Shown: positions 50,751-62,360 of the stretch, in pieces
How the letters are laid out: each line of letters opens with the position of its first letter
How positions within the stretch are numbered: the stretch's first letter is position 1
DNA from: Planctomycetota bacterium
GTDB taxonomy: Bacteria > Planctomycetota > UBA1135 > GCA-002686595
Direction: 5' to 3'
NCBI GenBank assembly: GCA_947484275.1
Contig: CANKOY010000003.1
Location: 62,001-126,000, forward strand
DNA: 64,000 nucleotides
Notes under the pieces: model-generated
What the model saw: only the letters and a program-made list of their open reading frames with translations
Databases searched by the model: none
What the model was told of the DNA's origin: nothing
Translations under genes and position numbers: made by a program

Positions 50751-52355
50751 TCAAGGTCGCCAGATGCATCCGTCGAGACACAGGAACTCGTCCTTGAATG
50801 CGCCACTGAGCTCCGTGCCGCCGTAGCCAAGGGCCCGGAGCCGCATGCTGTCCTCGGGGCTGACCGTCGTGCCCGGCAGGGCGCGTTGTGGCGCGAGCTC
50901 GCGCAAGAGCCGCAGTTTCTTGCGCTCCACCTCCAACATCGATAGCAAGGCCGGGGACGTGGGGTGCGACGCGTCGATCCATTCCGGAGGCCCAAGCTCG
51001 CGCGGATCGACGCGCAGGTCATAGCGTTCGGCGCTCCAGTCCGCGGTCCCGGGGCGGCGGATGATCGTGTGCTGGTGTTGTTCCACCAGGGATTCGAGCC
51101 ACAGGGGCTGGTCCACGCCGCGGCGAATGGTGACCTGACCGAGAAGGACGCTTTCAGCAGGTGGCCTTTCCTTGTTCGCCGCAAGGCTCAGCATGTCGAG
51201 GCCGGGCAGCAGGCGGTCAGGCTCCAGGCCCGCGGCAGCGCGCAGCGTGGGCGCGATGTCGACCAGGCCAACGTTTTCTTTGCTGCGCCCTCCCGCCGGA
51301 ATGTGTCCGGGCCATTTCACGATCATCGGCACCTGCAGCGCCTCGCGGTACAGCGTGCTGCCGTGCAACTTGCCACCGTGCTCGAAGAATTCTTCGCCGT
51401 GGTCTGAGGTCAGAACGATCAGTGTGTTTTCCAGGGCGCCGAGGCGGCCGAGTTCGCCCAGCAATCGCCCGAGTTCCTGATCCACTGCGGCAATTTCACC
51501 GTCGTAGAGTGCGACCACGTGCTCCAGGTCGCGCGGATCCATGCCCGCATGCACGGGAGAGTCCTTGCCGCCCAAATTCCGGCCATCGATAGTGCCCGTG
51601 TAGTCGGGATCAAAGCGCCGATCGAAGGGCGCCGGCGGCGTGTAGGGCGTGTGCGCGTCGTACACGTGCAGGGACAGGAAGTACGGATCGCGGTCGTCGC
51701 CGCGCGCCGCGATCCATTTCAGTGCGCCATCCACCGCCACCGGCGTCGTGCGCACTTCCTCGTCGAACAATTCGGGGTGTTCCTTGTGGATCGCGCGCAT
51801 GGTGTCCACATCGTTCGCCGCGCGGGCGATCTCCCAACGCTCGGCCACGCCCGGTTCGCTCTTGAACGAGTGCTAAGCGCGCTCCCAAACTTCGAACTTC
51901 GCTCCAAAGCCGAACTTGGGCTCCAGATAGATGCAGGAATAAAAGCCGGCGTTGTCATACCCGTGGCGCGCCAGGGCATCGCTGACAAAGGCGCCGCGCG
52001 GCAAGTGCGTCGCGACACTGTTCGTGGCGGTCAAATCGAAGTCGCACTGGCAGTGGGCGCTGACCGGCAGACCGGTGAACATCGACACGTGGGCGGGCAG
52101 GGTCCAACTGCTGGTGGACCAGGCGTTCTCGAACAGCGTGCCCTCGCGCGCTAGGGCATCGATCGTCGGCGAAGTGTCGCGCGAGTAGCCGTAGCAACCC
52201 AGGTGATCGGCGCGCAGTGTGTCGACGCTGATCAAAAGGACGTTGGGCGGGGCTGAGGGCTTCGAGCAGGCGCCGAGCAGCAGCGCGCAGGCGCCAAGCA
52301 ACACGGGCGGAGCTCGCCTGGAGCTGCACCCATCGAAATTTCGCGACAGCACCAT
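50751..52355 (-). pseudogene. Sulfatase-superfamily lipoprotein gene interrupted by TAG
   Basis: One frame of 535 codons from ATG 52355 is broken only by TAG at 51873-51875 (codon 161), after KFEVWERA and before HSFKSEPG. Both sides are well-preserved family sequence: lipobox LLLGAC (Cys30), VLLISVDTLRADHLGCYGYSRD, SSWTLPAHVSMFTGL before the stop, then DAHTPYTPP, VVALYDGEIAAVD, LTSDHGEEFFEHGGKLHG and a complete C-terminus. The CxPxR formylglycine motif is again missing (WTLPAH). A CAG-to-TAG or TGG-to-TAG change would explain the stop; a sequencing error is equally possible. Related to the intact gene at 9568-11127. Confidence 0.82.
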
Positions 52356-52542
52356 CGAGCCTGAAGGTAGCACCCTGGGTGACGGCCAAGAAGCTCCGAT
52401 TCGCCGCCCAGCTTCCCCTGGCCGCCAATGTCCGACCCGCACCTCTGGCGAGTTTCGTGGGCAGCGCAACGGCACTACCCACTACACTGGACGCCCCGCA
52501 CGCGCGCGACTTGCGCAGCGCAACCTCGGAAGACATTCAACG

Positions 52543-53805
52543 ATGATCCTCTACACCTTGGTCGGCCTCGTGTTCGCCGTGACGCTCCAAGTCCCCGAGC
52601 CCAGCGCCGAGAACTTCGCGCAGTGGCGCGATCACATTCGGCCCAAGGCCTCGGAGCTCGCGTTCGAAGATTGCAGCTGGAAGCCGACGTTTTGGGAGGC
52701 CGTGGTCGAAGGCCAAGCCCGGGCCAAGCCGATTTTGCTCTGGGCCATGAACGGCCACCCCATGGCGTGCACATGAAACAACGGAGTCATCGCCAGACGG
52801 TCGGTCTGGTCGGATCCTGAAGTTCAAGGGTTGCTGGCCCATTTCGTTCCCTGCGCCGACGAGGTGCACCGCCTGCAGTCGGGCAGCGATCCAGAATGCC
52901 GACTGGCACAGACGGTGTTCGAGCAAGGTCACTACGCCGGACGCACTCAGCCGAGCAACACGCGCCAGGGAATCTACGCCGCTGCGCCGAGCGGCGTGAT
53001 GCTCGCCAGCATCAACACCAACGATCCCAGGAAAATGGCTGCGATGCTGCAGCGTGCCCTGGAGCGCTGGAGTTCATTGTCGGAGGCCGAGCGCATGCTG
53101 TCCGGCGAGCCGAACGACGAGACGGCGAAGATCGACCGCCCCGAGCGGCGCTATCCGAGCGATGGGCTCGTGCTGCGAGTGTTCTCCCGCGATTTGCCGC
53201 GGGATCCCGCCCCGAATTCTGCGCGCGACACCGAGGGGCGCGACTGGCGAGCCAAGGCCTGGAATCAAGATTACGCTTGGTTCCGCCGCGAGGAAGCACG
53301 TTCGCTCTTGCCGGCGATGATCGAAGCGGGCCAGATGTCGCGCGCTCCCGACGGGCTGCTTCGGCGGCTGGCGAAGTTCAACTTCATCGACAATGTGCGT
53401 GGTCAGACCGGCGCCTACGCCAACGGCGATATTCTCGCGGCGAACCTCGATGCCGAGGTGCTCCGGGTCGTCGATGGAATTGCGCAAGTTCGTCTGGTGG
53501 GCGAAACCCATGCCGCGCGCGAGGGCACTTGGCCCATCGAAGGCTTCAAAGACAAGCAGGCACCAGCGAAGCACAAAGTCGGCGTCCAGTTGAAGCTCTT
53601 TGGCAGCGCTGAGTTCGACGTGGCCCAGGGCAAGTTCGTCGCGTTCGAACTGCTCGCCCTGGGCACGCGTTTTGGCGCGACCCAATACAACGGTCGCCAC
53701 GACGACGCGGATCCCGCGCCGATCGGCTACTTCCTCACGTTGACCGGTGACAGCCCCGCGGAGCGCGTGGCGCCCTCGTTTTACCGGAGCTACGGCTGGA
53801 AGTAA
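52543..53805 (+). CDS. Probable selenoprotein with CxU motif, exported or membrane-associated
   Basis: One frame of 421 codons from ATG 52543 to TAA 53803-53805, broken only by TGA 52774-52776 at codon 78. Read as Sec, the motif is C76-T-U78 in AMNGHPMACTUNNGV, preceded by a thioredoxin-like strand (KPILLWAMNGHP). An N-terminal hydrophobic segment (LYTLVGLVFAVTLQV) suggests a signal peptide. Downstream, SDPEVQGLLAHFVPCADEV and GIYAAAPSGVMLASINTNDPRKM continue a thioredoxin-like pattern, and a C-terminal domain of about 220 residues follows. A bSECIS hairpin with GGTC in its loop lies at 52792-52810. CxU is a known redox arrangement, and a thiol oxidoreductase role is inferred. Without recoding, only 77 residues would be made. 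Confidence 0.8.
52792..52810 (+). promoter_or_regulatory. bSECIS hairpin of the CTU selenoprotein gene
   Basis: A 6-bp stem CCAGAC/GTCTGG (52793-52798 with 52804-52809), extended by a G-T pair, with apical loop GGTCG (52799-52803). The loop begins 23 bases after the TGA. The GGTC is shared with the other candidate SECIS in this window and with E. coli fdhF. Confidence 0.75.
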
Positions 53806-61919: not shown

Positions 61920-62360
61920 CTACTCCACCGTGAACGAGACGCGGCCGTCGAAGCGCGGCGTGCGCACGCAATCGAAGGGCGACGTGACAATCGTCGCCTG
62001 AAGACTTCCGGGGGCGGGGCGTGTCTCCCGCGCGCGCACGATCCAGTGGGAGCCCTGACGCGTCACGGAGTCAATTGCCACGCCGTATCCGCCGCTCGGG
62101 CGCTCGCCGAGCCCCACGACGATCAACATCGAGTTCGACCAGTCGACCTTCAAGGTCGGCGGTTCCATGCCCGGCGAGTTCAGCTTGCAGATCTCGCGCC
62201 ATTCCTCGTCGCTGCGGATCACCGCGTTTTTCGGTTGCATCGAGAAGCCCACTTGGCTGGACATGACGCGCTCGAACGCAATTTCAGGCTGCTCGGAGGT
62301 GGAGCGGCACGCCGTGGCGACGAGCAGCGCTGGGAAGATGAAATTGCGTACGAAGTGCAT
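61920..62360 (-). CDS. PrcB-domain lipoprotein
   Basis: A 146-residue protein with lipobox LLVATAC (Cys18). The single domain matches PrcB_C-type proteins: EEWREICKLN, LIVVGLGERPSGGYGVAIDSVTR, and TSPFDCVRTPRFDGRVSF. In oral spirochaetes PrcB is part of the dentilisin (PrtP) subtilisin complex, so the position next to an S8 protease gene (convergent, 66 bases apart) is suggestive of an inhibitor or assembly partner. This functional link is inference. ATG 62360 is chosen since it starts the signal peptide. Confidence 0.82.
   Translation of the reverse strand: MHFVRNFIFPALLVATACRSTSEQPEIAFERVMSSQVGFSMQPKNAVIRSDEEWREICKLNSPGMEPPTLKVDWSNSMLIVVGLGERPSGGYGVAIDSVTRQGSHWIVRARETRPAPGSLQATIVTSPFDCVRTPRFDGRVSFTVE

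Follow-up and report, generated by a model that had tools for sequence, protein, structure and literature searches.

Results and Discussion

Reading Frame and Features of the Locus

The DNA analysed here is a stretch of 64,000 nucleotides (the window) of contig CANKOY010000003.1 from a Planctomycetota bacterium (positions 62,001 to 126,000 of the forward strand), and the element in question is a putative selenoprotein gene in which a TGA codon appears to encode selenocysteine (Sec). A single frame was found on the plus strand from the ATG at 52543 to the TAA at 53803-53805, the TGA at 52774-52776 being its sole interruption: 77 codons precede the TGA (residue 78), 342 codons and the TAA follow it, and the product would be composed of 420 residues with Sec78 in the context WAMNGHPMACT-U-NNGVIARR. 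The same arrangement had been described in an initial sequence-only reading of this DNA, and was confirmed. Full-length homologues matched the window protein over its whole length, with a top identity of 63%. The features assigned to the gene are the following.

52543-53805 (+): putative selenoprotein gene, 420 residues, Sec78, stop TAA (frame with TGA read as Sec; identity to full-length homologues)
52543-52602 (+): hydrophobic N-terminus, probable signal peptide (sequence inspection; low model confidence in this segment)
52660-53076 (+): predicted thioredoxin-fold domain, residues ~40-178, Thioredoxin_7/AGR-like (weak PF13899 matches; AlphaFold2 model; Foldseek match to AGR3)
52768-52770 (+): Cys76 of a CxU motif, two residues ahead of Sec (in 81 of 90 Sec members)
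52774-52776 (+): TGA, putative Sec codon, residue 78, at the attacking-Cys site of CxxC (conservation; 3f9u profile alignment; start of the model helix)
52782-52819 (+): stem-loop resembling a bacterial Sec insertion sequence (bSECIS), core hairpin 52793-52809, loop GGTCG from 22 nt past the TGA (folding, covariation, Arg codon use)
52969-52971 (+): Gly143 at the presumed cis-proline position (3f9u alignment; Gly in 92 of 92 full-length homologues)
53116-53802 (+): predicted C-terminal beta-rich domain, residues ~192-420 (AlphaFold2 model of the domain by itself)

Conservation of the TGA Codon

Six relatives were named from a collection scan (L001-L003 from Armatimonadota, L004 and L005 from Planctomycetota, and L006, titled Methanoregulaceae); all six had TGA at the same codon, and tRNA-Sec was present in all six genomes. 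The L006 gene is very near that of a Fimbriimonadaceae genome, the L006 genome is listed in the Armatimonadetes phylum, and its Methanoregulaceae label is probably wrong. When the search was widened, 86 of 294 Planctomycetota genomes and 71 of 291 from Armatimonadota gave matches to the family, weak ones being counted in both figures. A search of the phylum of L004, a Phycisphaerales genome, gave the same contigs and nearly the same coordinates as one of the window's own phylum, in accord with a planctomycete source. The residue at the site in 92 distinct full-length homologues of both phyla was Sec in 84, Ser in five, Asp in two and Cys in one, and the in-frame UGA was flanked on both sides by conserved protein sequence. 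The sequence-only reading had proposed to look for Cys aligned with the TGA, an expectation that proved wrong. Such Cys homologues, the usual support for a selenoprotein assignment although no requirement for membership, numbered one among the 92, a divergent sequence (L115), the family being nearly always Sec. Since the profiles were built with C replacing U, the search was biased towards Cys forms and not against them.

Among 90 Sec rows, full and partial, Cys was found at position -2 in 81 and Gly at +3 in 88; in some rows His, Ala or another residue stands at position 76 although Sec is kept. The non-Sec rows require four or five state changes in a quick maximum-likelihood tree, an approximate number because some of these rows have long branches. 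The occurrence of a Sec and a non-Sec copy on the same contig in two cases (G161 and G110) suggests that the non-Sec state arose there after duplication. On contig G161:C321 (L063/L058), one copy is Sec with the Cys lost (HPLAAGUDNV) and the other is Asp (HPLGTGDENA).

Five Armatimonadota sequences (L118-L122) have Cys at the Sec position (PCANARTLRATLF) and are similar only in the thioredoxin-like part, over about 65-102 columns; they are possible distant Cys relatives of the family. In-frame TAG codons in some Armatimonadota homologues were considered as a second recoding and rejected, since the TAG in these genes is the normal stop at the end, past which the alignment had run on.

An in-frame TGA created by sequencing or assembly error has to be considered for a draft genome of 101 contigs. 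The same TGA is, however, present in many separately assembled genomes of two phyla, and a chance origin is excluded by its position at the same codon in the 84 distinct full-length homologues; the probability of such an error is negligible. The TGA might also be a true stop, the locus then being two genes or a pseudogene with a 3′ open reading frame (ORF) starting from TTG 52831 or GTG 52864. Because these two in-frame codons follow the TGA, gene-finding software might report a second ORF here, and the earlier statement that the second part has no other start signal was too strong; even so, the homologues show both parts to be one protein. The sequence-only reading had named separate genes for the two halves as evidence that would count against it, and none were present among the homologues examined. 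The protein is conserved on both sides of the TGA, the modelled thioredoxin domain crosses it, and, since the Ser, Asp and Cys homologues are each one uninterrupted frame, the existence of two separate genes can be set aside as very improbable.

Sec Machinery and Co-Occurrence with SelA

The whole set of selA, selB, selC and selD was found in the genome of the window, although its absence had been foreseen as a second possible objection. The tRNA-Sec scored 70.1 bits and was called tRNA-SeC with anticodon TCA by ARAGORN, and SelA (E 1e-124), SelB (E 3e-92) and SelD (E 8e-88) were matched. The SelD gene (L132, G000:C12:49124-50077) has its own in-frame TGA, in the context YAACAG-U-AGKM, at the usual Sec site, UxxK being the listed Sec site of selenophosphate synthetase (PMC13188914). 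The same genome contains a DsbD-like protein with UxxC, FTADW-U-LTCK (L166, G000:C7:16576-16836, minus strand), judged from its sequence a candidate for a further selenoprotein. Because tRNA-Sec, SelA, SelB, a SelD with its own TGA and this DsbD-like gene are all present, the organism very probably decodes Sec.

This genome also contains what remains of another family copy, a degenerate N-terminal piece (L057, G000:C65:16428-16616, minus strand); it has two in-frame TGA codons, its similarity ends just past the Sec-site TGA, and it is probably a pseudogene.

In Planctomycetota, SelA was found in 79 of 86 family-bearing genomes versus 114 of the 208 without the family (Fisher P 9e-11, a value that ignores relatedness). 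Among the seven family-bearing genomes without SelA, G097 and G174 have only Ser forms and G082 only a fragment lacking the site. In Armatimonadota, SelA was present in all 12 Sec-form genomes tested and in one of the four with only Ser or Asp forms. Over both phyla, five of the six genomes with only non-Sec forms had no SelA.

The Hairpin Downstream of the TGA

The sequence-only reading had noted a perfect 6-bp hairpin starting 16 bases after the TGA, and this hairpin is real: CCAGAC-GGTCG-GTCTGG, with 6 bp (7 with a G.U pair) and a loop of 5 nt. The bSECIS model used (PMC13188914) has a loop of 3-9 nt, G in the first two loop bases, a distance of 16-37 nt from the UGA, a stem of 4-16 bp and a minimum free energy of at most -7.5 kcal/mol. 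The window hairpin is in agreement with it (loop at 22 nt, 6-7 bp, -15.7 kcal/mol over the 45 nt past the TGA).

Compared with synonymous shuffles, the family as a whole showed lower folding energy (Wilcoxon P 7e-9) and a longer compliant stem (P 4e-12), both P values overstating independence as the rows are related. Arg codon use was unusual, AGA/AGG occurring 25 times where codon use in the same genes predicts 7.2. Among 37 sequences with the window type of hairpin, one closing pair is A-U in 16 and G-C in 10, and it changes together with Gln/Arg and with the third, synonymous base of the codon that follows. The predicted hairpin loop of one Armatimonadota group is at about 31 nt, not 22. 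On this comparative nucleotide evidence, the hairpin is constrained across the family beyond the requirements of the protein.

DNA alone cannot separate Sec insertion from a reading of the TGA as another amino acid, whether by a general code change or by programmed readthrough. A general change is countered by the homologues themselves: the same gene ends with TGA in L004, L028, L029, L045 and L052, which shows that those relatives have not reassigned TGA throughout. Insertion of another residue would also leave the presence of tRNA-Sec, SelA, SelB and SelD, the general lack of SelA in genomes with only non-Sec forms and the fit of the hairpin to the bSECIS model to be accounted for, and we give this explanation only a slight chance. 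From the TGA conserved in homologues and the full Sec machinery of the genome, which bear out the earlier selenoprotein claim, the TGA at 52774-52776 almost certainly encodes Sec.

Predicted Structure and Active Site

An AlphaFold2 model built with 49 family sequences (pLDDT, the predicted local distance difference test, 94; pTM, the predicted template modelling score, 0.91) showed a thioredoxin fold for residues ~40-178. The top Foldseek match of this domain was human AGR3 (probability 1.00, E 2.7e-3), in agreement with the thioredoxin-like character claimed earlier. The predicted domain spans the TGA site, so that the active site is placed within a thioredoxin fold in the model. For the C-terminal domain, modelled by itself with the same pLDDT, comparison with the PDB gave no sequence match and no reliable fold match, the best Foldseek probability being 0.47.

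The register of the active site was taken from a profile alignment to 3f9u, a weak PDB match (E 0.16), in which Sec and Gly81 pair with the two Cys residues of CVNC, in that order, and Gly143 falls on the proline ahead of FYVL, taken as the cis-proline. Two observations support this register: the model helix starts at residue 79, and the distance to VWSDPEV is conserved. Sec78 would thus occupy the attacking-Cys position of CxxC, with Gly where the second Cys would be and an additional Cys at -2, and not the position of the second Cys of a CxC pair, as had been proposed in the sequence-only reading. A pairwise MAFFT alignment with the DsbD-like protein, which puts Cys76 on the second Cys of the latter, was rejected in favour of the 3f9u profile register, the motif spacing and the start of the model helix. 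The CxxC spacing and cis-proline of classic CxxC oxidoreductases were not found in the window protein, which has UNNG and Gly at the cis-proline site.

By inspection, some family members have a classic N-terminal start of K/R followed by a hydrophobic segment, and L003 is seemingly without a hydrophobic N-terminal signal. The hydrophobic N-termini are consistent with the export also claimed in the sequence-only reading.

Comparison with Known Families

Pfam (E up to 10) and NCBIfam gave no match to the window protein. Thioredoxin_7 (PF13899) was matched weakly by 11 of 49 members (best E 5e-4, below the Pfam cut-off) and DUF255 (PF03190) weakly by two of 49; the family differs from both in Sec for the first Cys, Gly for the second, Gly at the cis-proline site and the added C-terminal domain. 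The putative exported cytochrome-c-biogenesis protein 3f9u shares with the family the spacing from the attacking Cys to V-W-x-D-P-x-V, in a weak profile match. AGR3 resembles the family domain in fold over ~150 residues, but is only 12% identical in the Foldseek alignment and has neither Sec nor the C-terminal domain, the AGR proteins being eukaryotic proteins of the endoplasmic reticulum. AGR3 has a thioredoxin fold without a complete CxxC.

No reliable match to the named selenoprotein families of NCBIfam release 20 was obtained for the window protein or for the members. Marginal matches to the VPGUxxT thioredoxin-like selenoproteins (NF041382/NF041383) were seen for two members (best E 0.009), but these are far from reliable and the VPGUxxT motif is not in the window family. 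The DsbD-like UxxC thiol:disulfide interchange selenoprotein (PF13098 entry, PMC13188914 Table 1) shares Sec at the attacking-Cys site and keeps the resolving Cys, whereas the window family has UNNG and its only nearby Cys at -2. A Cys at -2 is shared by several CxU selenoproteins (thioredoxin-like Sec.1, rhodanese form 3, UshA-like and ferredoxin-thioredoxin reductase; PMC13188914 Table 1), but NCBIfam, with models for several of them, matches neither the window protein nor the members to them. The motif agrees with none of the 119 prokaryotic selenoprotein families catalogued in 2026, and the papers searched on the motif and on selenoproteins of both phyla contained nothing on the family.

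Gene Neighbourhood

The window neighbours of the gene encode a sulfatase, an epimerase, a radical SAM protein and an S9 peptidase. Since the neighbours in the named relatives differ and are mostly unannotated, no operon argument can be made. The Fimbriimonadaceae relative (L002, 3602-5004) has a redoxin-family gene and one without annotation immediately upstream, both on the same strand as the family gene. The adjacent sulfatase gene (50751-52475, minus strand) contains an interrupting in-frame TAG (51873-51875), with the sulfatase domain matched on either side; the TAG may be a nonsense mutation, an assembly error or a recoding. A codon-usage scan of the 64-kb window for further TGA-readthrough genes gave no convincing second candidate.

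Proposed Function

In the mechanism that we propose, SelB carrying Sec-tRNA would bind the hairpin and insert Sec, and the protein would be exported by its N-terminal signal. Sec78, replacing the attacking Cys at the helix N-terminus of the thioredoxin fold, would attack, with its selenol, a disulfide or a peroxide as the oxidised substrate and reduce or exchange it. The selenium intermediate would be resolved by Cys76 or, as Cys76 is missing in some members, by an external thiol, and the choice of substrate or partner probably falls to the C-terminal beta domain. The role of exported selenol oxidoreductase has about an even chance of being correct. Sec incorporation and role taken together are very likely the best explanation of the locus, a judgement weighted to Sec incorporation.

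Several observations weigh against this explanation. Four Planctomycetota genomes (G164, G214, G264 and G280) carry the TGA form with no full SelA match, for which gaps in draft genomes are the likeliest reason, and G406 has SelA yet only an Asp form. The window hairpin by itself is ordinary compared with synonymous shuffles (stem length p = 0.20; energy z = -0.33). The invariant Gly143 at the cis-proline site and the Gly in place of the second Cys set the protein apart from classic dithiol oxidoreductases. Because the second Cys and the cis-proline are missing, the chemistry is uncertain, and peroxide reduction or metal binding is possible.

A Sec protein that is peroxidase-like or binds metals or metalloids (peroxide reduction, or Hg, Cu or As), instead of a disulfide oxidoreductase, is accordingly a serious alternative, to which we give somewhat less than an even chance. 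The two Gly replacements and the CxU pair are in its favour, as are the incomplete CxxC of AGR3, the closest fold, and the redoxin-family gene two genes upstream in L002. Against it, no conserved neighbour hints at metals or peroxides, the cis-proline argument is drawn from general background, and Cys76 is not strictly conserved.

Significance of the Family

The gene belongs to a large, uncatalogued thioredoxin-like selenoprotein family, found in about one in four of the species sampled from two phyla and almost purely Sec. Nearly all known selenoproteins are outnumbered by Cys counterparts, and search methods based on Cys pairs rely on that (PMC13188914, PMC12013277); such searches would miss this family because it has almost no Cys form. 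The family could be Sec-obligate, which we put forward tentatively and at slightly less than even probability: Cys could not do the chemistry, lineages losing Sec decoding would pass to Ser or Asp with the function changed or lost, in contrast to the Sec-to-Cys exchange that is the usual route elsewhere, and the C-terminal domain may be a new fold. The family may also account for some of the genomes that decode Sec but have no known selenoprotein, a gap noted earlier (PMC5029168). With Sec and Ser or Asp versions coexisting, in the two cases G161 and G110 on the same contig, the family would offer a natural system for studying what selenium does beyond sulfur.
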